NCBI GenBank assembly: GCA_017482205.1
Contig: JAFUNK010000014.1
Location: 1-38,447 of the forward strand
Reading direction: 5' to 3'
Length of the DNA: 38,447 nucleotides
DNA from: Lachnospiraceae bacterium
Lineage (GTDB): Bacteria > Bacillota > Clostridia > Lachnospirales > Lachnospiraceae
The translations under genes and the position numbers were made by a program. The notes under the pieces were generated by a model. That model did no database searches. It was not told the DNA's origin and saw only the letters and a program-made list of their open reading frames with translations. Shown piece by piece: positions 12,007 through 28,173 of this stretch; position 1 is the first letter of the stretch; each line of letters begins with the position of its first letter.

Positions 12007-12205
12007 GAGCGGTTTTAATCGTTGTTTGGAGTAACGGTCTAAAAAGTTTCAACGCAGACGTGCTCTCGCTCCATGTGAAACGTAGCGGATGCTAAACTCA
12101 ACCTTCCCTCTATGAGGTCGGTTTCGTTAAGCACCGACGTTTCACAAGGGTCTGCTTATGAAAGCTTTTTAGAACCGATAACCAAGCAAAGGATTAAAAC
12201 TGCTT
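12007..12205. repeat. Structured palindromic element, copy A
   Basis: This is a nested inverted repeat between adk and map. Outer arms are AGCGGTTTTAATC (12008-12020) with GATTAAAACTGCT (12192-12204), TTGTTTGG with CCAAGCAA, and CTAAAAAG with CTTTTTAG. Inside, GCAGAC (12054) pairs with GTCTGC (12150), TGTGAAACGT (12074) perfectly with ACGTTTCACA (12137), and GCT with AGC near 12091/12130. The 130-nt core 12041-12170 aligns without length change to 28001-28130 (copy B). No open reading frame or known RNA family is recognised. It may be a structured noncoding RNA or a nonautonomous repeat; the sequence cannot decide. Confidence 0.85.
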
Positions 12206-12249
12206 CAAAGGAATGAAAGTGGCCGCTATGGCGGCAAAGGAGAGGAAAC

Positions 12250-13002
12250 ATGGCTGTTACAATAAAATCTGCCAGAGAAATTGAACTGATGAGAGAGTCC
12301 TGCAGGCTGCTTGCCCAGGTACACAAAGAACTGGAATATGCGATTAAACCGGGAATGTCCACGCTGGACATAGATATTATGGGAGATACCCTGATTCGTA
12401 AGATGGGATGTATTCCCAACTTTAAAAATTACAATGGTTATCCCGCATCTATTTGTACTTCCGTCAATGATGAAGTGGTGCATGGTATTCCCAATAAGAA
12501 GAGAATTTTGCAGGAAGGCGATATCATCAGTTTGGACGCAGGTCTTATTTATAAAGGTTATCATTCCGATGCAGCCAGAACCCATGCGGTAGGGCAGATT
12601 AGTGCTGAGGCACAGAAATTGATTGAAGTAACCCGCCAAAGTTTCTTTGAAGGAATAAAAATGGCAAAAGCAGGAAATCATTTACATGATATTTCCAATG
12701 CGATAGATGCGTATGTGTCACAGTTTGGTTACGGTATTGTACGGGAACTGGTAGGACACGGTATCGGTACAGCTTTGCATGAAGACCCGCAGGTTCCCAA
12801 TTTTGCACAAAAGCGTAAAGGAATTAAACTGCAGGCAGGTATGACATTGGCAATAGAGCCCATGATTAACATGGGTAGAGCGGATGTAGAATGGCTGGAC
12901 GACGACTGGACAGTGGTAACAGAGGACGGCTCCTTGTCAGCGCATTATGAAAACACCATACTGATTACGGATGGTGAGCCGGAAATCCTGACTCTTTATT
13001 AA
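12250..13002 (+). CDS. map: Methionine aminopeptidase, type I
   Basis: Map removes the initiator methionine from nascent proteins. The 250-residue product is a short type Ia enzyme without an N-terminal zinc extension. Metal ligands are visible as the two aspartates in SLDAGLIYKGYHSDAARTH (about residues 96-114), the histidine in GHGIGTALHE, and glutamates in AIEPM and SAHYENTILI. The start follows AAAGGAGAGG. The family commonly lies between adk and infA. Confidence 0.97.
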   Translation: MAVTIKSAREIELMRESCRLLAQVHKELEYAIKPGMSTLDIDIMGDTLIRKMGCIPNFKNYNGYPASICTSVNDEVVHGIPNKKRILQEGDIISLDAGLIYKGYHSDAARTHAVGQISAEAQKLIEVTRQSFFEGIKMAKAGNHLHDISNAIDAYVSQFGYGIVRELVGHGIGTALHEDPQVPNFAQKRKGIKLQAGMTLAIEPMINMGRADVEWLDDDWTVVTEDGSLSAHYENTILITDGEPEILTLY

Positions 13003-13014
13003 AAGAAAGGGCGC

Positions 13015-13308
13015 ATGCATATTATGATAGGAAGACTGGCATTTTCCAAAGCCGGACACGATAAGGGGACGGTTTATATAATAATAGGGGAGGACGCAGA
13101 AAACGTTTACGTGTGTGACGGTGAATTAAAACCCGTAGAGCGTCCCAAAAAGAAAAACAAAAGGCATATCCAACCAATATATAAAGGTTGTGATGAAGAC
13201 CTCAGGGAAAGGCTTAAAAATAAGCAGCCCGTCCGTAATGAGGAAATAAAGAGAGCAATTAAAGTGTTTATTATGCAAGGAGGTAACAGATGTCAAAAGC
13301 AGATGTAA
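13015..13308 (+). CDS. KOW domain-containing RNA-binding protein (L14e-like)
   Basis: This 97-residue protein begins with a KOW-like beta segment ([21 protein letters not shown]) and continues into a lysine-rich tail ([14 protein letters not shown]). Members of this family occur between map and infA in many Clostridia and resemble archaeal/eukaryotic L14e, so an RNA or ribosome role is likely but not shown here. Two starts are possible, 13015 and 13024; the AAAGAAAGGG site upstream fits either. The 3' end overlaps infA by 19 nt, and the infA ribosome binding site lies inside this gene, which suggests coupling. Confidence 0.85.
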
Positions 13309-13508
13309 TCGAAATCGAAGGAACAGTCATTGAAAAACTGCCCAATACCATGTTTCAGGTAGAACTGGAAAACGGTCACAAAGTCCTGGCACATATCAGC
13401 GGTAAATTAAGACAGAACTTTATTCGTATCCTGCCGGGAGATAAAGTAACATTAGAACTTTCTCCCTACGACCTGTCTAAGGGACGTATTATCTGGAGAG
13501 ATAAGTAA
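13290..13508 (+). CDS. infA: Translation initiation factor IF-1
   Basis: IF-1 occupies the 30S A site during initiation. The 72-residue OB-fold protein has the exact family length and the motifs [39 protein letters not shown] and [13 protein letters not shown]. Its ATG lies behind AAGGAGG, which is embedded in the end of the KOW gene. A TCACAGGG/CCCTGTGA stem-loop and a new promoter follow, separating it from rpmJ. Confidence 0.98.
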
Positions 13509-13523
13509 GGATAAAAATGCTGT

Positions 13524-13547
13524 TCACAGGGATTTTACTCCCTGTGA
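13524..13547 (+). other. Stem-loop after infA
   Basis: A perfect TCACAGGG/CCCTGTGA stem with an 8-nt loop 15 nt after infA. The downstream sequence is A-rich rather than U-rich, so a canonical terminator is not clear. It may weaken read-through into rpmJ. Confidence 0.5.
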
Positions 13548-13587
13548 TACATAAATAAAAAAAGTAAAAGAAAAACACAAAAAACAC

Positions 13588-13616
13588 TTGTAAACAAAAG
13601 AACTACATGCTATAAT
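13588..13616 (+). promoter_or_regulatory. Promoter for rpmJ and possibly the alpha operon
   Basis: TTGTAA and a perfect TATAAT are separated by 17 bp, 34 nt upstream of the rpmJ start. The flanking DNA is A-rich. It starts a transcript that would carry rpmJ, a terminator-like hairpin, and the structured region before rpsM. Confidence 0.8.
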
Positions 13617-13649
13617 GTAAAACGGTCTTTTTTGAAAGGAGGGTTTAAC

Positions 13650-13763
13650 GTGAAGGTTAGATCATCAGTAAAACCGATTTGCGAAAAGTGCAAAATCATT
13701 AAAAGAAAAGGAAGTATCAGAGTAATCTGTGAGAATCCGAAACACAAACAGAGACAGGGATAA
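13650..13763 (+). CDS. rpmJ: 50S ribosomal protein L36
   Basis: L36 is the smallest 50S protein. The GTG start behind GAAAGGAGGG gives 37 residues beginning [15 protein letters not shown] and ending NPKHKQRQG. The zinc ligands Cys11, Cys14, Cys27 and His32 are present, so it is the zinc-binding form. Because of its size and GTG start it is easily missed. Confidence 0.97.
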
Positions 13764-13818
13764 TCACCAACTTGAAGTTTTAAAATCAAGTATGTGAGTT
13801 CTTGTCCCATTATTGTAT

Positions 13819-13849
13819 GCGGCTGAAAGTATGACTTTCCGCTCTTTTT
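13819..13849 (+). terminator. Terminator or attenuator after rpmJ
   Basis: GCG...GAAAGT pairs with ACTTTCCGC around an ATG loop, followed by TCTTTTTG. It lies 55 nt after rpmJ and 400 nt before rpsM. I find no convincing promoter after it, so it may work as an attenuator that regulates read-through into rpsM-rpoA (inference). Confidence 0.65.
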
Positions 13850-14224
13850 GTGTGTCCGGCGATTTTCGCAGGAAGATACGTAAAACGGGAAGTTGTAATT
13901 TATATATAATGGAAGAGCTTACGGGAGATTACTTGTTGATACCACGACAAAGAGATTTTCTGGATTTGCAAAGAACGCAAATCAACAAAATCTAGGCTTT
14001 GTCGCCAAAAACGCTTAACGCGTTTTTGAAAAGGCAAAACCTGATAATAATCAGAAACTTTTTGTCGGGGAAAGATCGGACACTTCCGGTTGGGTGAAAG
14101 CCCCAATCAACTTAGTAACCAGCAGTCTGGCAAAGCCAGGGTGCATTATGTGTACAGCCTCCGCAGAGCGGGGAGCAAAGACCAGACGTACACAAGCGTT
14201 AAAAATTCCGGGAATCGGAAACGC
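13850..14224 (+). ncRNA. Structured leader region of unknown family upstream of rpsM
   Basis: The 483-nt rpmJ-rpsM gap has no credible gene but dense pairing. GTGTCCG (13852) pairs with CGGACAC (14077) and closes a ~230-nt domain. CGACAAAG (13945) can pair with CTTTGTCG (13997) or with CTTTTTGTCG (14058), two exclusive states. Local hairpins are GATTTGC/GCAAATC, CAAAAACGC/GCGTTTTTG (14006-14028) and CTGAT/ATCAG (14041-14054). A second domain has GGTTGGG/CCCAATC, GTCTGG (14125)/CCAGAC (14182) and GTGTAC (14150)/GTACAC (14188). TTCCG/CGGAA sits just before the rpsM ribosome binding site. I do not recognise a known riboswitch or ribosomal leader motif. Confidence 0.65.
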
Positions 14225-14246
14225 ACAGAAAATGGAGGAAACGTAA

Positions 14247-14618
14247 ATGGCTCGTATCGCAGGTGTTGACTTACCTAGAGAAAAACGTGTAGAGATTGGT
14301 TTGACTTATATCTATGGAATTGGTAGAGTAACTTCAAACAAAATCTTGGCAGAAGCAGGTGTAAATCCTGATACTCGTGTCAGAGAACTGACAGACGATG
14401 AAGTAAAGAAAATCAGCGAAGCAATCGAAACTCTGGATGTTACCGTAGAAGGTGATTTGAGAAGAGAAATCGCATTAAACATCAAGAGATTACAGGAAAT
14501 CGGATGCTATCGTGGTGTTCGTCATCGTAAGGGTCTTCCCGTTCGTGGTCAGAAGACTAAGACAAATGCTAGAACCCGTAAAGGTCCTAAGAGAACCGTT
14601 GCTAATAAGAAAAAATAA
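14247..14618 (+). CDS. rpsM: 30S ribosomal protein S13
   Basis: S13 forms the head-body bridge with the 50S subunit. The 123-residue product shows [34 protein letters not shown] and the basic end [21 protein letters not shown]. The start follows ATGGAGG. It is the first gene of the alpha-operon block and the one directly behind the structured leader. In E. coli the equivalent spot is the S4 repressor target. Confidence 0.98.
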
Positions 14619-14705
14619 GTAACGTAGATGGTGCATATTGTGTACCGTTGCAAAAATAAGTATTGTGTAACTGCAAACAATTTTGAGAAAGTAGGTTAGT
14701 TTAAA

Positions 14706-15107
14706 ATGGCTAAGAAAGTAACAGCTAATAAGAAAGTCGCTAAAAGACGCGTAAAGAAAAACGTTGAACGTGGACAGGCACATATCCAGTCTTCCTTTAA
14801 CAATACCATCGTTACATTAACTGATACCGAAGGTAATGCATTAAGCTGGGCAAGTGCTGGTGGTCTTGGATTTAGAGGTTCAAGGAAATCTACTCCCTAT
14901 GCAGCACAGATGGCAGCAGAAACTGCAACCAAGGCTGCTTTAATCCACGGATTAAAGACTGTAGATGTATTTGTAAAGGGTCCCGGTTCAGGACGTGAAG
15001 CAGCAATTCGTGCCCTTCAGGCATGTGGTCTGGAAGTTACCAGCATCCGCGACGTAACTCCCGTACCTCACAATGGATGCCGTCCTCCTAAGAGACGTCG
15101 CGTTTAG
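14706..15107 (+). CDS. rpsK: 30S ribosomal protein S11
   Basis: S11 lines the platform near the E site. The 133-residue protein has the family blocks [49 protein letters not shown] and the end [18 protein letters not shown]. Its ribosome binding site (GTAGGTTAG) is poorer than those of its neighbours, and the 87-nt gap after rpsM contains nothing else recognised. Confidence 0.98.
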
Positions 15108-15203
15108 TGTGAAACTTGAAACAAGTTGGAAGAAAGCCGCGGCGTGATGCCCGGTTGTAAACAATAGTCAGAGGCATAGGCCTCACAGAAAGGAAACATA
15201 AAA

Positions 15204-15797
15204 ATGGCAGTAAATAGAGTACCCGTACTGAAAAGATGTAGAAGTTTAGGTTTAGAGCCTCAATACTTAGGCTACGACAAGAAGTCTAACAGAACCAGCG
15301 CAAGAGCAGGCAAGAAGATGAGCGAGTATGGTCTTCAGTTAAGAGAGAAGCAGAAAGCAAAATTCATCTATGGTGTATTAGAGAAGCCTTTCAGAAATTA
15401 CTATGAAAAGGCTGACAGAATGAAAGGTATGACCGGTGAAAACCTGATGGTTATCCTGGAAAGAAGACTGGACAGCGTAATTTTTAGAATGGGCTTTGCA
15501 AGAACCAGAAGAGAAGCTAGACAGATTGTTGGTCACAAGCATGTACTTGTAAACGGCAAGAACATCAAAGTACCTTCTTACTTAATTAAGGCTGGCGATG
15601 TAATCGAAATCAGAGAAAAATCCAAATCTTTACAGAGATACAAAGATATCGTTGAAGTAACAGCAGGAAGACTTGTTCCTGAATGGATGGATGTTGATAT
15701 CGAAGGTCTTAAGGGAACTGTAAAAGCACTTCCTACCAGAGAACAGATTGATGTTCCTGTAAATGAAATGCTTATCGTCGAATTATATTCTAAATAA
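15204..15797 (+). CDS. rpsD: 30S ribosomal protein S4
   Basis: S4 initiates 30S assembly and forms part of the mRNA entry channel; in several bacteria it represses its own mRNA. The 197-residue product has an S4 RNA-binding domain around [20 protein letters not shown] and [17 protein letters not shown]. Only one N-terminal cysteine is present (LKRCRSLG), so this is the zinc-independent type. It lies in the alpha operon instead of being monocistronic as in Bacillus. The 96-nt gap before it has AACTTG/CAAGTT and GAGGC/GGCCTC mini-hairpins. Confidence 0.98.
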
Positions 15798-15835
15798 GCC
15801 GTAATTAAAATAGTTCGTAAAGGAGGGTATTTGCA

Positions 15836-16795
15836 GTGTTTGATTTTGAAAGACCGAATATTGAGGTTGCTGAAATTTCTGAAGACAAAAAGTATGGCAG
15901 ATTTGTAGTGGAACCTTTGGAAAGAGGTTACGGTATCACCCTTGGTAATTCTTTAAGAAGAATCATGTTGTCTTCCCTGCCCGGTGCGGCAGTAAGTCAG
16001 GTAAAGATTGAAGGCGTATTACACGAGTTCAGTTCTATTCCCGGCGTAAAAGAAGATGTAACAGAGATTATCATGAATATCAAGAGCCTTGCTATCAAGA
16101 ATAGCAGCGAAACAAATGAGCCTAAGACCGCATATATTGAGTTTGAAGGCGAAGGCGTTGTAAGAGCATCTGATATTCAGGCTGACGCAGACATAGAAAT
16201 CCTCAATCCGGATTTGGTAATTGCTACCTTAAGTGGCGGCAAAGAAACCAAGTTGTATATGGAACTGACCATTACAAAGGGCAGAGGTTACATCAGTGCA
16301 GATAAGAATAAAAATGACGACCTGCCTATTGGTGTAATCGCAATCGATTCCATCTATACACCGGTTGAAAGAGTAAACGTAACAGTAGAAAATACCCGTG
16401 TGGGTCAGATTACAGACTACGACAAGCTTACCTTGGATGTATATACCAATGGAACTTTAGTTCCCGATGAAGCTGTAAGTTTGGCTGCAAAAGTACTCAG
16501 CGAACACTTAAGCCTTTTCATTGATTTATCTGAAAATGCTAAAACTGCAGAAGTTATGGTAGAAAAAGAAGACGATGAAAAAGAAAAAGTTCTCGAAATG
16601 AGTATCGACGAATTAGAGTTGTCTGTTCGTTCCTACAACTGCTTGAAGAGAGCAGGTATCAATACTGTTGAAGAACTGATTAACAAGACTCCCGAAGATA
16701 TGATGAAGGTTCGTAACTTAGGCCGCAAGTCTTTGGAAGAAGTTCTTGCAAAATTAAAAGAATTAGGTCTGCAGCTGAATCCCAGCGAAGACTAA
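15836..16795 (+). CDS. rpoA: DNA-directed RNA polymerase subunit alpha
   Basis: The alpha dimer scaffolds RNA polymerase, and its C-terminal domain contacts UP elements and activators. The 319-residue product has the N-terminal domain with [20 protein letters not shown] at about residues 22-41 and the C-terminal HhH domain ([20 protein letters not shown] and [11 protein letters not shown], residues ~262-300), joined by an acidic linker. The GTG start follows AAAGGAGGG. A very stable stem-loop begins immediately after the stop. Confidence 0.98.
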
Positions 16796-16907
16796 AGCGA
16801 AAATAAATTCTAAGGTGCTGTAATACAGCACCTAAGAATTTATTTTCGCTTCGAAATAATGATCAGGGTCATTATTTCCAATGGGAATGGCGAAGCCATT
16901 CTTCCCA
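16796..16907 (+). other. Three stem-loops between rpoA and rplQ
   Basis: Hairpin 1 has 25-nt arms (16796-16820 and 16826-16850) with one mismatch and a TAATA loop, opening AGCGAAAATAAATTC directly after the rpoA stop. Hairpin 2 is GAAATAATGA/TCATTATTTC (16853-16878). Hairpin 3 pairs TGGGAATGG with CCATTCTTCCCA (16882-16907). None ends in a U-tract. rplQ starts 134 nt later, and a CATCTG/CAGATG pairing is the only other structure in between. Confidence 0.8.
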
Positions 16908-17041
16908 ATATAGATGACTGCATCTGTGGTAAATCCAATGTGTATGCAGATGTATATCATAAATGGCTATTAACAGCATTCGGTATGTAAGTCCAAAGAG
17001 CGTGGCCGGATGTACCATGAAATGAGAAAGGAATTAAAACA

Positions 17042-17647
17042 ATGGCAAAGTACAGAAAACTTGGCAGAACCAGCAGCCAGAGAAAAGCATTATTAAAGAA
17101 TCAGGTAACCGCATTACTGTATACCGGTAAGATTGTTACCACCGAAGCAAAAGCAAAAGAAGTTCGTAAGATTGCAGAAGGCCTTATTGCAATGGCTGTA
17201 GCAGAAAAAGATAACTTCGAAACCGTAAAGGTTACCGCTAAGGTTGCTCGTAAAGACAAAGATGGCAAGAGAGTAAAGCAGATCGTTGATAAGGAGACCG
17301 GTAAGGTTCTTTCCGAAACTCATCGTGACAAAGACGGTAAGATTTTAAAAATCGAAAACGGTGTAACCGTTACCGTTTATGACGAAGTAGAAAAGGAAAT
17401 CAAGAAGGATATGCCTTCCAGACTGCACGCTCGTCGTCAGATGTTAAAGGTTCTGTGCCCTGTAAAGGAAGTTCCTACTGAAAATGCAGGCAAGAAGAAA
17501 AATACCAAGGAAGTTGATATGGTTGCAAAACTGTTCGACGAAATCGCTCCTAAATATGAAAGCCGTAAGGGTGGTTACACCAGAATCATCAAGATCGGTC
17601 AGCGTAAGGGCGACGGTGCTATGGAAGTAGTACTGGAACTGGTATAA
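17042..17647 (+). CDS. rplQ: 50S ribosomal protein L17 with a large internal insertion
   Basis: L17 lies at the solvent side of the 50S near the tunnel exit. Family cores are present: [18 protein letters not shown] and [13 protein letters not shown] at the N-terminus, and [20 protein letters not shown] with [12 protein letters not shown] at the C-terminus. The protein is 201 residues instead of the common 115-130. The extra ~75 residues lie mainly at about 62-125, with two similar lysine-rich segments ([10 protein letters not shown] and [10 protein letters not shown]) that look like a beta-rich extension. The start follows GAAAGGA. Confidence 0.96.
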
Positions 17648-17671
17648 TCAAAACAGTAAATAGTTTGCATG

Positions 17672-17710
17672 GAAAACCGGTAGTCTTAGGGCTGCCGGTT
17701 TTGTTTGTTC
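17672..17710 (+). terminator. Intrinsic terminator after rplQ
   Basis: AAAACCGGTAG pairs with CTGCCGGTTTT, followed by GTTTGTT. It ends the alpha-operon transcript. Confidence 0.8.
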
Positions 17711-17769
17711 ATTATCAATGGATGGGCGAAAATTTTTTTGTGTAAATTTTATAAAATTATATATAAATG

Positions 17770-17798
17770 TGGAAAAATTTTTCAAAATGGACTATAAT
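17770..17798 (+). promoter_or_regulatory. Putative promoter for the chemotaxis receptor
   Basis: A perfect TATAAT lies at 17793-17798, with a weak TGGAAA 17 bp upstream in strongly AT-rich DNA. No flagellar sigma-28-type motif was found. Confidence 0.5.
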
Positions 17799-17831
17799 GT
17801 AACTATGACTATATAGGTTGGAGGGTATGGC

Positions 17832-19532
17832 ATGAAAATTAAATCCAAGATTACATTAGTAGCAATTGCACCTCTTTTATTGATGGGGATTATGATTATA
17901 TTATTAAGCAAACAGAGACTGAATGATGTAGTAGAGAATGCCATTGAGAACGGTTTGCGTAGTACGGCAATTGCAGTACGTAACACAATTATATATTCAG
18001 ATCCGGAAGGTAAGTTTGAGTTCAATAATCATGGTTATCTGGTAAAAGGTGAATTTAATATTTCTAAAACACCTCAAATTGTAGATGACATTAAAGAAGC
18101 AACTAACATGGATGTTAGTATCTGTTACAAGAATGTAAGATATGCGACTACGATTATTGGTCCTACCGGAAATCCCATTGTGGGTACCAGAGAAAATGAT
18201 TTGGTAAAAGAAATCGTATTGGAGAATGGACAGGAATACTTCTCTGACAACATTGATGTTTACGGAGAAACCTATTATGGATATTATGTACCGATGTTTG
18301 ATGCAGAGGGTAAAGCAGTAGGTATGATATTTACCGGTATGCCCAGAGCGGAAGCAATGTCCCAGATTTCCAGTATTGTAACTTTGATTATTATGTTGGT
18401 TGTAATCAGTGTATTGCTCGCAATTGTTCTTGTATATATCATAACGAGTAAACTGGTTAAAGCATTACATAAGGGGACTGGTGCTTTGGAACAGGTATCC
18501 CAGGGACAGTTGGATGTGGAACTGGAAAATAAGTTGCTTAAGAGAAAAGATGAAATCGGTACGATTTCCAGAGCCATTATGAAACTGAAAACGGAACTGG
18601 CAACTACCATCGGTGTGATTAAGGCACAGAGTGAGGAGTTAAACCTTGCAGCAGCCTATCTCCACGATAGAATGGAAGATACATCCGGTACGATTTCCAG
18701 AGTGGAAAGAGCTATTGGTGAAGTGGCAATGGGTGCAAGCAATCAGGCAGAAGAAACCCAGAATGCAACCGATCATGTTATCCATATGGGTGATATGGTA
18801 GAAGATACCGCAAAAGAAACCGAAGAGATGAATCGGAGTGCCAAGGATATGCATGTACTTGGGCAGGAAGCTTTTGAGACCTTACATGAGCTGCATCGTA
18901 TCAACGAAGAGGCAAAAGAGTCGATCAATGTTATTTACGAGCAGACCAATACAACTAACCAGTCTGCACAGAAGATTAAAGAAGCAACCAGCCTGATTAC
19001 CTCTATTGCAGAAGAAACCAATCTGTTATCCTTAAATGCATCAATTGAGGCGGCGAGAGCAGGTGAACAGGGACGTGGATTTGCAGTAGTAGCTTCCCAG
19101 ATTCAGAAACTGGCAGAGCAGTCCAATCAGTCGGCACAGCAGATTGAAGCAATTATCTCAGACCTGATAGCAGATTCTGACAAATCTGTTGAGACCATGG
19201 ATATCGTAAAAGATATTATGGACAGACAGAGTGAAAATATGGTTAGAACGGATAACCGTTTTGCAGAGGTACTGAAAGGTATTGAAGCATCTATTGAAGC
19301 CATCAGCCGTATTACAGCAAAGACGGAAGATATGGATGGTTCCAGGATCAGTGTAGTAGACACAGTACAGAATCTGACAGCGATTGCGGAAGAGAATGCA
19401 GCCAGCACACAGGAAACCTCCGCTTCCATTACCGAGATTGCAAATGCAGTTGCAGATATTTCCATGAGAGCAGAACAGTTGAAGGTTATTGCAGACAAGA
19501 TGGACGAAAGCATGGCAGTGTTCAAATTATAA
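17832..19532 (+). CDS. Methyl-accepting chemotaxis protein
   Basis: This transmembrane chemoreceptor probably feeds CheA/CheW. The 566-residue protein has membrane segment 1 at about residues 7-27, an extracellular single-Cache-type sensor (about 30-165) ending [20 protein letters not shown], membrane segment 2 (about 178-203), a HAMP region, and a signalling domain whose hairpin tip reads [20 protein letters not shown] (about residues 395-414) then GRGFAVVA. The ligand cannot be inferred. The start ATG follows GGTTGGAGGG. It is flanked by terminators and looks monocistronic, an insertion between rplQ and the ECF genes. Confidence 0.93.
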
Positions 19533-19569
19533 GCATTTGATAGTAATAAAGTAAATAGTAAAGTTATAT

Positions 19570-19605
19570 AAAAAGTCGGCATACAGAGGTATGTCGACTT
19601 TTTTC
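19570..19605 (+). terminator. Intrinsic terminator after the chemotaxis receptor
   Basis: AAAAGTCGGCATAC pairs with GTATGTCGACTTTT (one G-U) around an AGAG loop and runs into TTTTTTC. It could also work on the - strand, because an A-run precedes the stem, and so serve the convergent peptidase gene. Confidence 0.85.
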
Positions 19606-20594: not shown

Positions 20595-20600
20595 ATTATA
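20595..20600 (-). promoter_or_regulatory. Possible -10 box for the M15 peptidase
   Basis: A TATAAT on the - strand lies 45 nt before the start codon, but no good -35 box stands 17 bp upstream. It is divergent from the ecfA1 promoter. Confidence 0.35.
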
Positions 20601-20619
20601 GAGTGATTTTGTAAAATAG

Positions 20620-20648
20620 TTGTATTTCCCGATAAATTCTAGTACAAT
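20620..20648 (+). promoter_or_regulatory. Promoter for the ECF operon
   Basis: TTGTAT and TACAAT are separated by 17 bp, 86 nt upstream of ecfA1. No riboswitch motif was recognised in the short leader. Confidence 0.6.
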
Positions 20649-20734
20649 AAGAAACATGCGGGGAAACAGTAGATTGATTTGGAGAAGATAGAAGAACTTC
20701 CGAAGATTTCAACGCATGAAAGGCAAGGGTGTTT

Positions 20735-21607
20735 ATGGGAATTATCAAAACAGACAAACTGGTTTTTGAATATATCAGACGTGATGAGGACGGCAATGTA
20801 GAGGGTATTAACCGTGCGGTAGATGAAGTGACCTTAGATATTAAACAGGGAGATTTTATTGCTGTTTTGGGACACAACGGTTCCGGCAAGTCCACACTTG
20901 CAAAGCACATGAATGCGATTCTGTGTCCGACGGAAGGCACCATCTGGGTGGATGGCAGGGATACCAGAGAAGAGGACGAGGTTTGGAATATCCGCCAGAC
21001 CGCAGGCATGGTATTCCAGAATCCCGACAACCAGATTATCGGACAGGTTGTAGAAGAGGACGTAGGTTTTGGCCCTGAGAATATGGGTGTGCCTACCAAG
21101 GAGATTTGGGAACGTGTGGAAGAAAGCCTCAAAGCAGTCGGCATGTATGAATTCCGTAAATATTCCCCAAACAAACTTTCCGGCGGTCAAAAGCAGAGAG
21201 TTTCTATTGCGGGAGTGTTAGCAATGCATCCTAAATGTATTGTGCTGGATGAGCCCACAGCAATGCTTGACCCCAACGGACGTAAAGACGTTATCCGTGC
21301 CATCAGGGCACTCAATGATGTAGAAAATGTAACAGTTATACTGATTACACATTATATGGAAGAGATTATTCATGCAGACAAAGTATTTGTTATGGATGAA
21401 GGAAAAATTGCCATGCAGGGTACACCTAAAGAAATCTTTTCCCAAGTGGAAGCGCTAAAAGCACTCAGGCTGGATGTACCGCAGGTTACACTGTTGGCGT
21501 ATGAATTGCAGAAGAAAGGCATTGCACTGCCGGACAGTATATTAAGTATTGAAGAATTTACAAAAGAAGTGATGCACTATTATGAGCAAAAAGGCAGAAA
21601 GGCATAA
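20735..21607 (+). CDS. ecfA1: Energy-coupling factor transporter ATPase EcfA1
   Basis: EcfA1 is one of the two ATPases powering vitamin uptake by group II ECF transporters. The ~290-residue protein has Walker [10 protein letters not shown] (about residue 45), the signature LSGGQKQR, and Walker [14 protein letters not shown]. The ATG at 20735 follows AAGGCAAGGG; a GTG two codons upstream is less likely. It lies 3 nt from ecfA2. No substrate-specific S component is in the window, as expected for a shared module. Confidence 0.95.
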
Positions 21608-21610
21608 ATT

Positions 21611-22456
21611 ATGGCAATTATATTAGACCATGTAAGCCATGTATACGGCGGAGACACAACCCTTTCCGTCAAGGCTTTAAATGATATCAATCTGGTAATT
21701 CCGGACGGTCAGTTTATCGGACTGATTGGACATACCGGCTCCGGGAAGTCCACACTGGTGCAGCATTTAAACGGATTGTTAAAAGCTACATCAGGCAGTA
21801 TTTATTTTAACGGACAGGACATTGATGATAAAGATTACAACCGTAAAGAACTGCGAAGCAAGGTGGGACTGGTATTCCAGTACCCGGAGCACCAGCTTTT
21901 TGAGTCAGATGTATTTTCAGATGTCTGCTTCGGACCTAAAAACTTAGGCTTATCCAAAAAAGAAACGGAGCTGCGTGCTTATGATGCACTGCGCAAGGTA
22001 GGATTACCGGAAGAATGCTTTTATCAGTCACCTTTTGATTTATCCGGCGGACAGAAACGAAGAGTGGCCATTGCAGGTGTACTGGCAATGAAGCCGGAGG
22101 TGCTGATTTTGGATGAACCTACTGCGGGCTTAGATCCTAAAGGCCGGGAAGAAATTTTGGAGCAGATAGTCAAACTCAGGGAAGAAAGCGGTATTACCAT
22201 TATTCTGGTTTCCCACAGCATGGAAGATGTAGCAGAATATGTGGACCGTATTCTGGTAATGAACCATGGGGAAGTGATGTATGATGATGTTCCCAGAGAG
22301 GTTTTCAAACATTACAAGGAGTTAGAGAGTGTGGGACTTGCAGCTCCGCAGGTAACGTATATTATGCATAAGTTAAAAGCAGCAGGGCTTGGTGTGGACG
22401 AAAATGCCACAACCATCAGTGAAGCTTGTGAGGAAATTTCCAAAGTGCTTTTATAA
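21611..22456 (+). CDS. ecfA2: Energy-coupling factor transporter ATPase EcfA2
   Basis: EcfA2 is the second ATPase of the module and pairs with EcfA1. The 281-residue protein has Walker A GHTGSGKST (about residue 38), the signature LSGGQKRRVAIAG, Walker B VLILDEPTAGLDP, and a C-terminal extension typical of Ecf ATPases. It begins 3 nt after ecfA1 with only a modest GAAAGG site, suggesting coupled translation. Confidence 0.95.
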   Translation: MAIILDHVSHVYGGDTTLSVKALNDINLVIPDGQFIGLIGHTGSGKSTLVQHLNGLLKATSGSIYFNGQDIDDKDYNRKELRSKVGLVFQYPEHQLFESDVFSDVCFGPKNLGLSKKETELRAYDALRKVGLPEECFYQSPFDLSGGQKRRVAIAGVLAMKPEVLILDEPTAGLDPKGREEILEQIVKLREESGITIILVSHSMEDVAEYVDRILVMNHGEVMYDDVPREVFKHYKELESVGLAAPQVTYIMHKLKAAGLGVDENATTISEACEEISKVLL

Positions 22457-22468
22457 ACGAGGAGTCAT

Positions 22469-23272
22469 ATGCTTAGAGATATTACTTTAGGACAATATTA
22501 TCAGACGGAATCCGTCATTCACAGACTGGACCCGCGTGTAAAGCTGGCCGGTACTGTTATATTTATTATATCCCTGTTCTGCTTTGATAAAGGCTGGGGA
22601 TACATTGGAGCGGCAATATTTTTGGCAATAGTTATCAAGCTGTCCAAAGTGCCTTTTAAATTTATGATAAAAGGTATGCGCTCCATTATGTTTATTTTGA
22701 TGATTACCGTAGTGTTCAATTTATTTCTGACACCGGGTGAAGTGGTGGTTTCCTTCTGGAAACTGCAAATTACCAAGGAAGGTATCCGCATTGCAGCATT
22801 TATGGTAATCCGCCTTGCAATGCTTTTAATCGGTTCATCGGTTATGACCCTGACTACCACACCCAACAATCTCACAGACGGTATGGAAAAAGCAATGCGC
22901 CCTTTAAAAGTATTGCGTCTGCCGGTACATGAGATTGCCATGATGATGTCCATTGCACTGCGTTTCATTCCTATTTTAATGGAAGAAACCGATAAAATCA
23001 TGAAGGCGCAGTTGGCAAGAGGTGCAGACTTTGAAAGCGGCAACATCTTTAAAAAAGCAAAAGCCATGGTACCCCTGTTAGTGCCCCTCTTTATCTCCGC
23101 ATTCCGTCGCGCCAATGATTTGGCAATGGCAATGGAAGCCCGTTGTTACAGAGGCGGCAACGGACGTACCAAGATGAAACCGCTGGTATACAAAAAGCGG
23201 GACGCTATCGCCTACCTGGTGTTATTTGCCTATTTAGCAGGCAGTATAGCAGTAGATAAATTACTTTGGTAA
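22469..23272 (+). CDS. ecfT: Energy-coupling factor transporter membrane protein EcfT
   Basis: EcfT is the transmembrane coupling subunit that joins the ATPases to interchangeable S components. The 267-residue product has about five hydrophobic helices and both cytoplasmic coupling motifs: ARG in AQLARGADFESGN and the related ARC-RGG in MEARCYRGGNGRT. It starts with ATG behind ACGAGGAG, 12 nt after ecfA2. Confidence 0.95.
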   Translation: MLRDITLGQYYQTESVIHRLDPRVKLAGTVIFIISLFCFDKGWGYIGAAIFLAIVIKLSKVPFKFMIKGMRSIMFILMITVVFNLFLTPGEVVVSFWKLQITKEGIRIAAFMVIRLAMLLIGSSVMTLTTTPNNLTDGMEKAMRPLKVLRLPVHEIAMMMSIALRFIPILMEETDKIMKAQLARGADFESGNIFKKAKAMVPLLVPLFISAFRRANDLAMAMEARCYRGGNGRTKMKPLVYKKRDAIAYLVLFAYLAGSIAVDKLLW

Positions 23273-23275
23273 TAA

Positions 23276-23339
23276 TCAGAAACGGTAACAATCCGGGCGA
23301 CATTAGCGGCAGCGTGGAGCCGGATGTTACCGTTTCTGA
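23276..23339 (+). repeat. Twin stem-loop 1 with conserved apical motif
   Basis: TCAGAAACGGTAACA (23276-23290) pairs perfectly with TGTTACCGTTTCTGA (23325-23339), with an inner TCCGG/CCGGA stem. The apex holds a 24-nt sequence (23297-23320, opening GCGACATTAGCGG) that recurs in stem-loop 2. There is no U-tract after the stem. Confidence 0.8.
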
Positions 23340-23389
23340 CTGATTACCAGCAACTATCCTCCGCGTTGCATACATACGTCGTATATTGC

Positions 23390-23451
23390 CTGAAAAGGCA
23401 ACACGTAAGCGACGTTAGCGGTAGCGTGGAGCAGAGTGTTGCTATTTTAGA
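23390..23451 (+). repeat. Twin stem-loop 2 with the same apical motif
   Basis: GCAACAC (23398-23404) pairs with GTGTTGC (23436-23442) and extends through CTGAAAA/ATTTTAG. The apical 24 nt (23409-23432, opening GCGACGTTAGCGG) differ from stem-loop 1 at only two positions, although the stems are unrelated. truA starts 19 nt after the stem. Confidence 0.75.
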
Positions 23452-23469
23452 CATATGCAGAGGTAAGGT

Positions 23470-24210
23470 ATGAAACGATTCAAACTAACGGTAGCCTATG
23501 ACGGAACCGCCTATTCGGGATTTCAGGTGCAGAAAAGCAGCCCGACCATAGAAGGAGAATTGAATAAGAGCCTGACTTCCCTGTTGGGAGAAGAGATACA
23601 TGTTATCGGTGCCAGCAGGACGGATGCCGGAGTGCATGCACTCTGCAATGTGGCAGTATTTGATTCAGAGACCACTATTCCGGCAGAGAAACTGGCCTAT
23701 GCATTAAATCAAAGGTTGCCGGAGGATATCCGTATTCAGAAGTCAGAAGAGGTGGCTTTAGATTTTCATCCCAGACACTGCGACAGCAAAAAGACCTATG
23801 AATACCGTATCACCGTAGGAGAGTTTCCTGTTCCTACCAAGAGACTGTATTCTCACTTTACCTATCACAAGCTGGATGTGGCAAAAATGCAGGAGGCTGC
23901 AAAGTATTTGGTAGGAGAGCATGATTTTCAAAGCTTTTGCGCAGCAGCTGCAGTGGTGGAAACCACAGTGCGTACTGTTTACGAGGTAAAGGTAGAAGCA
24001 CAGGGCGACGATATTGTGATTGCAGTCAGTGGCAACGGCTTCTTATATAATATGGTGCGTATCATTGCAGGAACGCTTATGGAAGTAGGCAAAGGCAGAT
24101 GGGAGCCTGAACAGGTAAAAAACATTCTGGAGGCAAAGAACCGTACATTGGCAGGACCTACCGCACCGGCGTGCGGACTGATGCTTGTTAAGTACGAATT
24201 TTTGGTATGA
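23470..24210 (+). CDS. truA: tRNA pseudouridine(38-40) synthase TruA
   Basis: TruA isomerises uridines 38-40 in the anticodon stem-loop of tRNAs. The 246-residue protein opens FKLTVAYDGTAYSGFQVQ and carries the catalytic aspartate in ASRTDAGVHALCN (about residue 53). GNGFLYNMVRIIAGTLMEVG and RTLAGPTAPACGLMLV are family blocks. The start follows AGAGGTAAGGT. Genomic order ecfT-truA-rplM-rpsI is the common Firmicute arrangement. Confidence 0.97.
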   Translation: MKRFKLTVAYDGTAYSGFQVQKSSPTIEGELNKSLTSLLGEEIHVIGASRTDAGVHALCNVAVFDSETTIPAEKLAYALNQRLPEDIRIQKSEEVALDFHPRHCDSKKTYEYRITVGEFPVPTKRLYSHFTYHKLDVAKMQEAAKYLVGEHDFQSFCAAAAVVETTVRTVYEVKVEAQGDDIVIAVSGNGFLYNMVRIIAGTLMEVGKGRWEPEQVKNILEAKNRTLAGPTAPACGLMLVKYEFLV

Positions 24211-24217
24211 CAGAAAA

Positions 24218-24236
24218 GCCCGATTTTACAGCGGGC
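24218..24236. other. Small hairpin after truA
   Basis: GCCCG pairs with CGGGC over a 9-nt A/T-rich loop. On the + strand it is followed by AAAATCC, so it is not a proper + strand terminator. Confidence 0.35.
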
Positions 24237-24338
24237 AAAATCCTTCACATATAAGTGGAAACAATGCCGACAAAATGCAACATATGCAAGTTGAAATAAA
24301 TGGCGTAAAAATACTGGAAAAAATGTGAATTTCCGGGC

Positions 24339-24367
24339 TTGACAGACCCGGTTTCATATAATATAAT
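24339..24367 (+). promoter_or_regulatory. Consensus sigma-A promoter for rplM-rpsI
   Basis: A perfect TTGACA and a perfect TATAAT are separated by 17 bp, the best promoter in the window. Transcription would begin near 24375 and give a ~190-nt leader before rplM. Confidence 0.9.
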
Positions 24368-24374
24368 ATATCAC

Positions 24375-24566
24375 TGTGGCGACGTTTGAAAATGTAGCAC
24401 CAAAGCCCCGGTTCTACAGGGAGAACACGCAGATAAGTAGCTGTTTTGAAGGATTTTATGAGGTGGCCGGACATCTGCCAAGTAAGATTTCTGAGAAGCA
24501 AAAGAATATTCACGAAATGACAGAGAACTGTCAGATTTTGGATTTACTATGTATGGAGGAAATATC
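24375..24566 (+). promoter_or_regulatory. Long 5' leader of rplM
   Basis: The leader holds a GTTCT/AGAAC hairpin near 24411-24430 and TGACAG-AGAA-CTGTCA at 24518-24533, the latter followed by GATTTTGG. Firmicute rplM-rpsI operons often have an L13-binding leader. This one is a candidate by position, but I could not match the published consensus by eye. Confidence 0.4.
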
Positions 24567-24995
24567 ATGAAAACATTTATGGCAAGTCCCGCTACAATCG
24601 ATAGAAAATGGTATGTAGTAGACGCTACAGATATGACCTTAGGCCGTCTGGCTTCTGAGGTTGCAAAAGTTTTAAGAGGCAAGAATAAGCCTATCTTCAC
24701 CCCTCACATCGATACCGGTGACAACGTAATCGTTATCAACGCAGAAAAGATTAAAGTAACCGGTAAGAAAATGGATCAGAAGATTTATTACAGACACTCT
24801 GATTATGTTGGTGGTATGAAAGAAACTACTTTAAAGGAAATGTTAGCAAAGAAGCCTGAGCAGGTTATCGAACTTGCAGTTAAGGGCATGCTTCCTAAGG
24901 GACCTTTAGGCAGACAGATGTACACCAAACTGCACGTATACGCAGGACCTGAGCACAAACATGCAGCTCAGAAGCCTGAAGTATTAACATTCTAA
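24567..24995 (+). CDS. rplM: 50S ribosomal protein L13
   Basis: L13 is an early-assembly 50S protein. The ATG at 24567 behind ATGGAGGA gives 142 residues, the standard length; an in-frame ATG six codons upstream overlaps the ribosome binding site and is rejected. Motifs are [32 protein letters not shown] and [19 protein letters not shown]. Confidence 0.98.
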
Positions 24996-25019
24996 TAGGT
25001 CTGAGAGGAGGAAATAAAA

Positions 25020-25415
25020 ATGGCTAAAGCAGCAAGATACTACGGAACAGGTAGAAGAAAAAAATCCATCGCAAGAGTATACTTAATGCCGGGTACCGGT
25101 AAAATTACCATAAATAAGAGAGACATCGACGAATATTTCGGACTGGAAACCTTAAAGGTTATCGTTCGTCAGCCTTTAGCAGCTACTGAAAACGTTGAGA
25201 AGTTCGACGTATTAGTAAACGTACACGGTGGTGGTACTACCGGTCAGGCTGGTGCAATCCGTCACGGTATTGCAAGAGCACTCTGCCAGGCAGACGCTGA
25301 TTACAGACCCGTTCTGAAGAAAGAAGGATTCTTAACTCGTGATCCTCGTATGAAAGAACGTAAGAAATACGGTCTCAAGGCAGCTCGTAGAGCACCTCAG
25401 TTTAGCAAGAGATAG
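25020..25415 (+). CDS. rpsI: 30S ribosomal protein S9
   Basis: S9's C-terminal tail reaches the P-site tRNA anticodon loop. The 131-residue protein shows [38 protein letters not shown] and the tail [17 protein letters not shown] ending in the conserved Lys-Arg. The start follows AGAGGAGG, 24 nt after rplM. A strong terminator lies 48 nt after the stop. Confidence 0.98.
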
Positions 25416-25463
25416 GAATCCCTGCGATTCAGAACATCTCTGGTCAATTCAATACGATTTGTT

Positions 25464-25498
25464 ACTCCCCAGGATTATTGTCTTGGGGAGTTTTTTTT
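25464..25498 (+). terminator. Intrinsic terminator after rpsI
   Basis: ACTCCCCA pairs with TGGGGAGT and runs into eight T residues. This ends the rplM-rpsI transcript and precedes hairpin array 1. Confidence 0.9.
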
Positions 25499-25544
25499 GT
25501 GCGGGTTTATCATGAATTATAATTTAATTAAATAGTTAAAGGAA

Positions 25545-25849
25545 CCCGACTAAATGCACATTATCTCTTTTGAGTCGGGATAAAATTTACTTCCTATTCC
25601 GACTAAACAAGGGTTTTTACTTCTTCGGTCGGGTTTTAATCACTGCATTTGCCGACTGCAAGGGATGTTTTCGCTCTAGGGTCGGGTTTTAACCACTTTA
25701 CTTGCCCGACTGCAAGGGACGTTTTCGCCCTAGGGTCGGGTTTTAACCACTTTACTTGCCCGACTGCAAGGAACGTTTTCGCTCTAGGGTCGGGTTTTAA
25801 CCACTGCATTTGCCCGACTGCAAAGGATTTTTTCACGCTTCGGTCGGGC
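25545..25849 (+). repeat. Hairpin tandem array 1 (six units, 53-54 bp period)
   Basis: Units begin with CGAC at 25547, 25600, 25653, 25707, 25761 and 25815, that is 53, 53, 54, 54 and 54 bp apart. Each is an inverted repeat, CCGAC...GTCGGG, with an inner AGGG/CCCT pairing in the last units, followed by TTTTAA. Units 3-6 are nearly identical; units 1-2 are diverged and open CCGACTAAA. It lies between the rpsI terminator and the gntR promoter, in a 570-nt gap with no other gene. Confidence 0.9.
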
Positions 25850-25930
25850 GGGGGTTCCATATGTAGGTCCTTAACTGCAAACTTGATGTAAGTTTAATAT
25901 AAAAAATTTAAAATAAACACCATATAACAG

Positions 25931-25967
25931 TTGACAACAGATATAAACTGTTATATACTGTTTATAT
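25931..25967 (+). promoter_or_regulatory. gntR operon promoter with overlapping operator
   Basis: TTGACA (25931-25936) and TATACT (25954-25959) are 17 bp apart. The inverted repeat ATATAAAC (25941-25948) / GTTTATAT (25960-25967) covers the spacer, -10 and start region, a position suited to repression by the GntR protein encoded next. Confidence 0.8.
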
Positions 25968-25985
25968 CAGGAGGATGATCAACCA

Positions 25986-26363
25986 ATGGATATTATAATT
26001 AACAATTCATCTATGACACCTATCTATGAGCAGATAGTGTCGCAGATGAAAGAAAAGATAATGACCGGCAGGCTCAAGCCGGATACGATGTTACCGTCTG
26101 TGAGAACCTTGTCTAAGGATTTAAGGATTAGTGCACTTACGGTAAAAAAAGCCTATGATGCCATGGAACAGGAGGGCTACATCGTAACAGTGCATGGCAA
26201 AGGTAGCTTTGTGGCAAATATCAATCCCAATATAGCCATGGAGGAAAAGCAAAAGGAAGTCGAAAAACTTTTTGAACAGGGAATTCGGAAAGCTAAGGAA
26301 TGTGGAATGTCCACAGAGGATACGCAGGAATTGTTTCTGGTTGTGTTAAGCGATTATAAGTAA
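25986..26363 (+). CDS. GntR family (YtrA-type) transcriptional regulator
   Basis: The 125-residue protein has an N-terminal winged helix (TPIYEQIVSQMKEKIMTGRL, then LPSVRTLSKDLRISALTVKKAYDAMEQEGY read in two parts, and HGKGSFVA) and only a short ~45-residue C-terminal helix pair. That size is typical of YtrA regulators, which repress adjacent ABC transporter genes. The start follows CAGGAGGATG. It is first in a three-gene operon, and a palindrome overlaps its promoter, so autoregulation is likely. Confidence 0.92.
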   Translation: MDIIINNSSMTPIYEQIVSQMKEKIMTGRLKPDTMLPSVRTLSKDLRISALTVKKAYDAMEQEGYIVTVHGKGSFVANINPNIAMEEKQKEVEKLFEQGIRKAKECGMSTEDTQELFLVVLSDYK

Positions 26364-26389
26364 GTGAACGCTGGTTTGGAGGAAAAAAT

Positions 26390-27241
26390 ATGTTATTAAA
26401 ATTGGAAAATGTAAAAAAGAATTACGGAACATTTCATCTGGACTGTTCTATTGAAATAAAGAAAGGGCAGGTGACTGGGCTGGTAGGCAGCAACGGAGCC
26501 GGCAAGAGTACCACATTTAAAGCTATTTTAGGACTGATTTTTCCTGAGAGCGGTACTATCGAAATGTTTGGAAAGAAACTGGCAGATATTACGTCAGCAG
26601 ACAAGGAGCAGTTAGGAGTGGTGCTGTCAGAAGCCAATATTTGCGAGTTACTTAGTGCAAAGGACATGGCACCTATTATGAATGCCATGTATAAAAAATT
26701 TTCCACCAAGGACTATTTTGAAAAATGCAGGCAATACAATATACCTCTTGATAAGCCTATTAAGGAATTTTCAACAGGTATGAAGGCAAAATTGAAACTG
26801 TTATTAGCACTTTCACATGATGCCAAATTGCTGATTTTGGATGAGCCTACGGCCGGTCTGGATGTTATCATGCGAAATGAACTGTTGGATATGCTCAGAG
26901 ACTATATGGAGGACGGGGAGCGTGCCATACTTATCAGTTCACATATTGCCACAGACCTTGAAGGCTTGTGTGATGACCTTTATATGATAGCGGACGGCAA
27001 AATTATTATCCATGAAGAAACGGATGTGCTTCTTGCGGAATATGGCGTGTTAAAGTTAACAAAAGAGCAGTATGAAAGCCTTGATAAAGAATTTATTATT
27101 TCCACAAAGGAAGAAAAATTCGGCTATCTATGCCTTACTAACCGGAAAGATTATTATCAGGAAAACTATCCGCAGATTGCCATTGAAAAAGGAAATATAG
27201 ATGATCTTGTTATATTGATGGGTAAAGGAGGAAAGAAATAA
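26390..27241 (+). CDS. ABC transporter ATP-binding protein (YtrA-regulated exporter)
   Basis: The 283-residue ATPase has Walker A GSNGAGKST (about residue 34), the signature FSTGMKAKLKLLLAL, and Walker B LLILDEPTAGLD, followed by a ~70-residue C-terminal domain. It most resembles BcrA/NatA-type exporter ATPases. The start follows TTTGGAGG, 26 nt after gntR. The substrate is unknown; antibiotic- or cell-envelope-stress exporters are common in this arrangement. Confidence 0.92.
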   Translation: MLLKLENVKKNYGTFHLDCSIEIKKGQVTGLVGSNGAGKSTTFKAILGLIFPESGTIEMFGKKLADITSADKEQLGVVLSEANICELLSAKDMAPIMNAMYKKFSTKDYFEKCRQYNIPLDKPIKEFSTGMKAKLKLLLALSHDAKLLILDEPTAGLDVIMRNELLDMLRDYMEDGERAILISSHIATDLEGLCDDLYMIADGKIIIHEETDVLLAEYGVLKLTKEQYESLDKEFIISTKEEKFGYLCLTNRKDYYQENYPQIAIEKGNIDDLVILMGKGGKK

Positions 27242-27242
27242 G

Positions 27243-27923
27243 ATGAAAGGATTAATGATTAAAGACTTAAAATTACTTGCAAGTCAGAAAAAGATTTTTA
27301 TTATAACCATTTTTGTGGCAGCGGTATTTGCATGGACTTCGGATGATGTAACATTTGCTGCAACCTATATTGTTTTATTGTTGTCAATGATGACGTTAAC
27401 TACTATTAGTTATGATGATATGAACAACGGTATGTTGTTCCTGCTTTCCCTACCCGCAGGCAGAAAAACGTATGTAAAAGAAAAATATGTATTCGCATTT
27501 TTAAATTTGATATTTGCAGGTACTTTATCACTGGTTGTCTGCTATGCGTTTTCTGTTATAAAAGGAACACCTCTGAAGCTTGACGATTTGCTTTCAAATA
27601 TTATAGGTATAACGTTAGGTATGGCAGTCATGCTTGCAGTTACGATACCTCTTGAACTGAAATATGGAGTGGAAAAAGGTCGTATTGCCATGCTTGTAGC
27701 CATAGTAATTGTTGCATTGGTAGGTACCGGCGGATATAAACTTTTGACAAATGTACTGCATGTGGATGTCAATGGTTTTCTGATAAGTATCTTGGAGAAG
27801 CTTCCTAAACCGGGGGAAGGACTGGAAATAATAGTGATGGGCGGATTGTTTGCCATCTTATTATTGGTGCTGTTTATTTCCTATATGATTGCAAATAAGA
27901 TTATGAAAAAGAAAGAATTTTAA
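27243..27923 (+). CDS. ABC-2 type transporter permease
   Basis: The 226-residue protein has about six hydrophobic segments and an N-terminal cytoplasmic MKGLMIKDLKLLASQKK. The loop SYDDMNNGMLFLLSLPAGRK, then TYVKEKY, is characteristic of ABC-2 permeases next to YtrA-type operons. It starts one base after the ATPase stop, with the AAAGGAGG site inside the ATPase gene, so coupling is likely. Element B follows and may terminate the transcript. Confidence 0.9.
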   Translation: MKGLMIKDLKLLASQKKIFIITIFVAAVFAWTSDDVTFAATYIVLLLSMMTLTTISYDDMNNGMLFLLSLPAGRKTYVKEKYVFAFLNLIFAGTLSLVVCYAFSVIKGTPLKLDDLLSNIIGITLGMAVMLAVTIPLELKYGVEKGRIAMLVAIVIVALVGTGGYKLLTNVLHVDVNGFLISILEKLPKPGEGLEIIVMGGLFAILLLVLFISYMIANKIMKKKEF

Positions 27924-27960
27924 AACTCGAAATTCATAGCAGTATCTGAATACATCTTAA

Positions 27961-28173
27961 AAAAAGAGGCTGTTGAAAAAAATGAGGTAGCGTTAGTTGG
28001 AAAAAGTTTCCTTGCAGACACGCTTGCGCTCGTGCCGAACGTAACGGTACTAAACTTGCCCCCCTTCTCTGGGAGAAGCGGGCTCGCTAAGTACCGACGT
28101 TCGCCAAAGGTCTGTGGCGGAAAGCTTTTTCCAACTAACGCTACCTCAAATATTTTGCAACAACCTCTTTTTT
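27961..28173. repeat. Structured palindromic element, copy B
   Basis: The outer stem is a perfect 24-bp pairing (27983-28006 with 28125-28148), preceded by AAAAAGAGG/CCTCTTTTT arms (27961 and 28165). Core pairings are GCAGAC/GTCTGT (28014/28110), GAACGT/ACGTTC, and CGGTACT (28045)/AGTACCG (28089). The 130-nt core matches copy A in length and conserved columns, including an unpaired C in GTTTC/GAAAGC. The 3' arm ends in TTTTTT and also carries the -35 box of the next promoter. Confidence 0.88.

Follow-up and report, generated by a model that had tools for sequence, protein, structure and literature searches.

What are the two long hairpins that stand in a contig of a Lachnospiraceae bacterium, and do they act as RNA or as DNA? 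The question arises from a stretch of 38,447 nucleotides (the window; contig JAFUNK010000014.1 of assembly GCA_017482205.1), in which two copies, A and B, of a palindromic element each carry a core of 130 nt between self-complementary arms. An earlier note on this DNA, made from its letters only, had proposed a noncoding RNA, a mobile palindrome or a processing element, and among these three options the mobile palindrome fits best. Our best reading is that both copies belong to an old, Lachnospiraceae-specific, high-copy palindrome family with a unit of about 200 bp, and we consider the chance somewhat better than even that the family consists of non-autonomous mobile DNA palindromes resembling miniature inverted-repeat transposable elements (MITEs) and repetitive extragenic palindromes (REPs).

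Copy number and distribution are the first evidence. BLAST with core B gave 37 matches in the window's genome (G000) and retrieved core A with 70% identity (E 8.7e-7). The earlier note had described two copies; R1, a covariance model derived from 28 of them in all, gave 69 matches in the same genome, which correspond to 64 places after removal of five antisense overlaps. When 200 genomes of the same family were searched under strict filters, at which weak matches are lost, 85 of them, including the window's own, and 84 of 199 genera were matched. Matches per genome numbered 143 in G352, 147 (146 distinct) in G353, at least 150 in G072, 62 in G012, 43 in G107 and 40 in G234. A second model (R2), built from 99 copies of genomes other than the window's, matched 12 of 391 genomes drawn from the whole class; 11 of these, again with the window's own, are of the same family, and the match outside it is single and weak (E 1e-4). 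An 18-base core pattern occurred in at least 114 stretches of named genomes, mostly titled Lachnospiraceae or carrying names of genera of that family, and the 11 stretches with other titles (e.g., Caballeronia, Bradyrhizobium, Arthrobacter) gave no match to the model. One named record with matches, in L148 and L156, is Eubacterium sp. MSJ-21. Core length ranges from 108 to 156 nt in the window's genome and from 104 to 164 nt in 164 matches elsewhere, to which arms of about 40 nt are added. The units are dispersed among ordinary genes, as single copies or, in some genomes, as facing pairs.

Within the window, the parts of the two copies and the gene upstream of copy A are arranged as follows.

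11358..11999, + strand: adk, upstream of copy A
12007..12040, + strand: left variable arm of copy A, between the adk stop codon and the core
12041..12170, + strand: conserved core of copy A, 130 nt, R1 score 122.1 bits
12171..12205, + strand: right arm of copy A, complementary to 12007-12040
27960..28000, + strand: left arm of copy B; its outer end, GAGGCTGTTG, is similar to the terminal repeat of a young subfamily, GGGGCTGTTGCAAAATAG
28001..28130, + strand: conserved core of copy B, 130 nt, R1 score 127.6 bits
28131..28173, + strand: right arm of copy B; 28150-28165 fits the terminal-repeat pattern with one mismatch and is followed by a T tract

Both hairpins, reported before at 12007-12205 and 27961-28173, were thus found in place with their 130-nt cores, except that the predicted pairing of copy B spans 27960 to 28173 and so begins one base earlier. 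The conserved blocks that had been named occur in both copies, and the 24 perfect base pairs claimed for the arms of copy B are present as TGAGGTAGCGTTAGTTGGAAAAAG and its own reverse complement, adjoining the core. One detail did not hold: the single bulged base in the AAAAAGTTTC/GAAAGCTTTTT stem, described as a C that both copies keep, is in fact the G that precedes CTTTTT (A1 column 133), and it is not invariant, further copies having A or T. Predicted folding energies are -87.3 kcal/mol for copy A (z -9.65) and -107.8 kcal/mol for copy B (z -10.77), and in neither case was any of 200 shuffled sequences as good.

The core proved to be an asymmetric folded structure with an internal loop (CGCTYTCGCTC), two stems (AACGTA/ACGTT and CGGTACT/AGTRCCG) and a variable apical hairpin. 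In the 99 copies from other genomes, 32 of the 34 core pairs show changes on both sides and 94.0% of cells pair, which bears out the compensating stems seen earlier in two copies; homologues are many and they keep their pairing. The covariation score reached 0.614, while shuffles gave 0.161 and slid partners no more than 0.104. Absolute values are biased towards the structure because the alignment had been made by fitting to the model; significance was judged by shuffles and slid structures. Conserved stretches in the same 99 copies lie mostly in loops and in the inner stem (CGCTYTCGCT, AACGTA.CGG, CTAA, TAAG, CCGACGTT and AA.GGTC). The apical hairpin varies freely in sequence; in 4 of the 12 alignments of orthologous sites it had been replaced or lengthened, namely for both copies of L077/L088 and for L133/L173 and L069/L102; such replacement may be a sign of gene conversion.

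The arms are largely private to each copy in sequence and kept in pairing. Among the 64 copies of the window's genome, 36 have more than 95 bits and enough flank, and 34 remained after two alike were dropped. Counted outwards from the core, arm positions 5-24 of these copies have 33% identity from copy to copy and 80% pairing within one; for positions 25-40 the values are 35% and 74%, and beyond position 40 they fall to 28% and 22%. The arms had a median self-pairing score of 23, compared with 1 when arms were mismatched. The 99th percentile of the controls was exceeded by 43 of 59 copies and not by the other 16; five of the 64 had been left out for short flanks or scores below 40 bits. Arm identity was compared with core identity: copies with 70-90% identical cores have arms with median identities of 0.40-0.44, and those with 90-95% identical cores (20 pairs) reach 0.45/0.49, whereas the arms are common (0.68/0.85) to copies with cores more than 95% identical, of which there are three pairs only. 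The arms thus amount to a stem whose length is roughly constant and whose sequence is free, and they do travel with the youngest copies. At orthologous sites, the same double change from T:A to G:C was observed in an arm for L062/L086 and L133/L173; in L124 and L116, of which the latter is truncated, the flanks are 94% identical and the arms very different; several further sites carry single unpaired arm changes or none. Steady, slow compensation alone is hard to square with the near-background arms of copies whose cores are 90-95% identical, and for this same reason we prefer conversion of the core together with drift of the arms. The idea that arms are taken from the target flank at insertion is not supported at L328, introduced below, where the empty site has no arms.

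Does the pairing reflect a selected RNA? If the fold were selected in RNA, mismatches of the G.U type should be tolerated over those of the A.C type. We counted both in 164 copies, leaving out those whose left 30 nt are more than 70% identical to a kept copy or whose flank is shorter than 80 nt. Among 6836 Watson-Crick pairs in the arms there were 294 G.U and 287 A.C mismatches (78 and 111 in the window's genome, 216 and 176 in other genomes), and the numbers for mismatches with matches on both sides are 132 and 143. Because the two types are about equally frequent, we read the arms as a DNA-level palindrome: overall they behave as such and not as a selected RNA helix. Per-helix counts for the core, which cover helices 1, 2 and 5, differ from one another. 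Helix 1 has 15 G.U and 34 A.C mismatches and helix 2 has 5 and 7, whereas helix 5 of the inner core has 47 and 4, with 37 of the 47 stemming from one pair, columns 65/163. The inner core is more like a folded strand, for which RNA and single-stranded DNA are both plausible. The earlier claim of selection on a fold, in RNA or in single-stranded DNA, therefore stands for the inner core as a plausible folded single strand and is not supported for the arms as far as RNA is concerned.

A structured noncoding RNA or 3'-untranslated RNA element, in which the core-sense transcript would fold and be bound or processed (RNase III acting on the long stem is one possibility) and in which the fold would be selected, is quite unlikely on these grounds. 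It would account for the strong covariation, the conserved unpaired blocks, the excess of G.U in helix 5 and the lean towards G.U in the arms of other genomes. It is at odds with the balance in the arms as a whole and with the reversed ratio in helix 1. Gene contexts, taken from gene calls of a simple open reading frame (ORF) scan, point both ways. In the window's genome, the upstream gene is in sense with the copy in 43 of the 62 copies that have an upstream gene call, and 26 spacers are convergent and 7 divergent. The convergent bias is missing elsewhere, with 20 convergent and 23 divergent spacers, and orientation with respect to co-directional genes is inconsistent (15 versus 12 in the window's genome, 42 versus 59 in others). 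Furthermore, 64 to more than 140 copies per genome, along with facing pairs, would be unusual for an RNA gene. Rfam yielded no match in the window at the gathering threshold and, with E values up to 10, nothing for copy A and three unconvincing weak matches around copy B; a known RNA family was rejected on this negative search. Cargo of phages or plasmids was likewise rejected, as blastn with core B found no match in either collection. A published description was not found in the literature searched, with subscription papers and preprints outside the search, and the family is apparently undescribed. PMC8040213 reports 250 palindromic RNA candidates and PMC11109978 further mobile or repeat candidates; the element could be among them.

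Balanced mismatches are also what one would expect if both strands folded, i.e., if the host kept the element as a cruciform, a bidirectional terminator or a site for nucleoid proteins or topoisomerase. We regard such a host-kept chromosomal element as unlikely. Besides strand symmetry, the ends of the arms speak for it: a T tract is present at the right end in 34 of 59 copies and an A tract at the left end in 33 of 59, compared with 14 and 13 further out and with 18 and 22 when the opposite letters are counted at these ends. A pattern-based terminator scan with a loop limit of 8 called no terminator on the outer arms of either copy; its calls at 28100-28121, inside core B, and at 12222-12235, beside copy A, are near the level of shuffled sequence. 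Judging by the terminator-like ends, some copies may form the hairpins that end transcripts, and some probably act as 3'-end hairpins or terminators in addition to whatever else the family does. Against a host-kept element stand the 115 of 200 family genomes without a match under the strict filters, and the site of copy A itself. When 24 relatives of the same genus were searched, the sequence downstream of adk, i.e., the adk-map spacer, was without the element in all 15 that had an adk match; in one of the loci compared, L216, the reading frame was missed by the script and the sequence itself has a short spacer without the element. Among 138 genomes, the best full-length relative reaches about 75% identity at secY-adk, too little for it to serve as an empty site for the window's own copies.

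Mobility, as opposed to a fixed chromosomal feature, is favoured by terminal repeats and by one site that differs in presence of the element. In a young subfamily of the window's genome the ends resemble GGGGCTGTTGCAAAATAG, and the corresponding pattern has 46 matches there compared with 4 for the control. Copies of the G352/G353 clade have another end, GGTAATTGCGAAACT, with 73 matches compared with 9 for the control in G352. Terminal inverted repeats thus differ between the two lineages while the core stays. The presence/absence site is a segment of about 212 bp at L328:1498-1711, which is missing from contig C5 of G353; CCATT stands on both sides of the copy where the relative has CCCTT, a possible 5-bp duplication.

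Mobile DNA palindromes remain the favoured reading, and a number of observations weigh against it. Clean movement rests on the L328 site, where a deletion in the relative between the 5-bp repeats is not excluded, and no target-site duplication was evident by eye in the young copies of the window's genome. Three further site differences can be explained without transposition: a facing pair in L317 that corresponds to a remnant left end in L381 and the difference at a30:57532 are both best read as deletions, and a30:2280 holds a different hairpin in the same terminal-repeat frame, for which exchange fits as well as transposition. Two contig stretches of G352 hold 14 copies, six with a collinear partner; four of these six are shared with the relative, one is internally deleted and one site has a different hairpin. 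Copies therefore often look old, which would also suit a host-kept element. In many old copies no terminal repeats could be made out by eye, and a purely selfish MITE leaves the conservation of the core over 84 genera unexplained. To these points are added the opposite leanings of the arm mismatches, towards A.C in the window's genome and towards G.U elsewhere, and two negative results from the search for a mobiliser. Of the clusters into which 721 flanking ORFs fall, the 14 that recur most include nothing that looks like a transposase by eye, and no autonomous copy with an ORF between the core halves or in the apical loop was seen in a weak motif test, in which 134 left motifs had a right motif within 100 nt in 44 cases and none at all in 90. 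The terminal-repeat loci of G000 were also read by eye for an autonomous relative, in genomes that are incomplete. The flanking clusters come from 93 genome labels, with some genomes counted more than once, and were named by eye; the 14 look like ABC transporter, glmS-like, MATE-like and leucyl-tRNA synthetase-like genes, among others. A link to one particular neighbour gene was rejected on these 14 clusters. The ends of the element presumably resemble those of IS1182- or IS6-type insertion sequences (IS).

Several observations concern shortened or replaced forms. The window's genome has six hairpins, each only some 59-87 bp long, that carry the terminal repeats of the young subfamily and lack most of the core:

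L183, C1:40170-40240: short hairpin
L188, C7:18938-19008: short hairpin
L197, C24:91638-91708: short hairpin
L193, C21:106707-106777: short hairpin
L194, C21:282597-282683: short hairpin
L176, C15:23497-23555: short hairpin

Several of them have a similar deletion junction, so the short form may itself have multiplied. A second, different palindromic repeat, with the sequence GACAAAATAAGGGCGACTTGCC, was observed in G353 (C8, around position 189,100), at L380:1660-1816, in L337 and in L409. At one site it has GGTGATTGCGAAA-type ends and takes the place of the element in the sister genome; elsewhere it adjoins the element.

In G353, 26 of 27 neighbours less than 800 bp apart face each other, and these 26 pairs, 20 of which lie in L404-L423, have spacers of 33-617 bp. 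Close neighbours in the fetched stretches of G352 and G353 were facing in 13 of 13 cases, which are partly the same pairs. Among 20 close neighbours in loci of other genomes, with gaps below 800 bp and some of them orthologues or near-duplicates of each other, 16 were facing, two head-to-tail on the plus strand, one divergent and one head-to-tail on the minus strand; the divergent neighbours stand between two pairs in L130. One of the four non-facing exceptions, at L155:5991-6261, consists of two elements in head-to-tail tandem with 48 bp between them. Facing pairs are absent from the window's genome, in which no neighbours lie closer than 961 bp. Inspected by eye, most of 20 pairs of G353 have conserved, GTCACGCCG-like left ends outside and CGGCTGAAAG-like right ends inside, and a facing pair with outer left and inner right ends is possibly a compound unit. 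Convergent genes were rejected as the cause of facing pairs, because the genes around 23 of 30 paired copies are co-directional.

Dimers of this kind recall REPs, which according to PMC3733652 are imperfect palindromes of 20-40 bp, extragenic and numerous in the genome, and often occur as facing dimers with variable spacers. The element shares with REPs, with bacterial interspersed mosaic elements (BIMEs) and with REP doublets forming hairpins (REPINs) the many intergenic imperfect palindromes per genome and the facing dimers. REP tags at the stem base are GTAG or CGTC; many G353 copies have, by eye, a GTCA-containing left end. The element differs in its size of about 200 bp, its conserved multi-loop core, its copy-specific arms and its lack of a consistent Y1 transposase. 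A REP/BIME/REPIN family moved by a Y1 transposase of the REP-associated tyrosine transposase (RAYT) type would explain the high copy number, the extragenic sites and the facing dimers, as PMC3733652 describes them for REPs. We nevertheless hold it to be very improbable. Y1_Tnp (PF01797) stayed below the cut-off in 10 of 20 element-rich genomes, including G353, which had no match of any kind, and exceeded it in 13 of 15 genomes that had no element matches in the family search; for G000 and G012, completeness is only about 73%. In length, too, the unit far exceeds a REP.

MITEs are comparable with regard to terminal inverted repeats, the absence of an ORF, dispersed copies, short deletion derivatives and the one presence/absence site with a possible 5-bp duplication. 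The element departs from them in that its terminal repeats vary by lineage while the core stays, its arms are self-complementary yet largely private to each copy, and no partner IS was found. Integron attC sites are recognised by hairpin shape and have variable self-complementary stretches, a possible likeness to the element. The MRSC-65-2 motif, according to PMC11109978, occurs in diverse phyla, contains a UYCCGG repeat, is present in dozens of copies per genome and perhaps acts as DNA. It has in common with the element the single long covarying stem and the dozens of copies; the element differs in that its matches lie almost wholly in one family and that none of 99 core matches has two UYCCGG motifs and 3 of 99 have one. 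The closest counterparts of the element are REP/BIME and MITE, both of which differ from it clearly.

How a mobile palindrome could acquire similar cores and dissimilar, paired arms can be pictured as follows. The unit would be moved in trans by a transposase, and its core may be recognised as a folded strand by some factor. Cores could be kept alike by ectopic gene conversion, or concerted evolution, while the arms of each copy would drift and stay paired as one arm templates repair of the other; selection for cruciform extrusion may keep the arms paired instead. At L104/L154 and L075/L114, the intergenic region with the element is nearly identical between species and the upstream coding end differs; at L075/L114 the start of the downstream gene is nearly identical as well. 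These sites hint at recent recombination across the element. A bolder version, possible but doubtful, is a new class of mobile DNA that has the folded single-stranded core as its identity and is spread through the family by machinery unrelated to RAYT or any fixed IS. Its ends and arms would be interchangeable, with terminal repeats swapped between lineages, arms renewed as blocks and then made complementary by arm-templated repair, and facing pairs as a compound unit.

Lachnospiraceae are a major family of the gut and rumen. A repeat that exceeds 140 copies in some of their genomes and has no Rfam match bears on annotation, on assembly and on RNA discovery, in which elements of such a kind would score as strong covarying RNA candidates. 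The comparison of G.U with A.C mismatches illustrates that covariation alone is no proof of RNA, and the family provides a natural experiment for studying the survival of long palindromes, and the upkeep of their pairing, in bacterial chromosomes.

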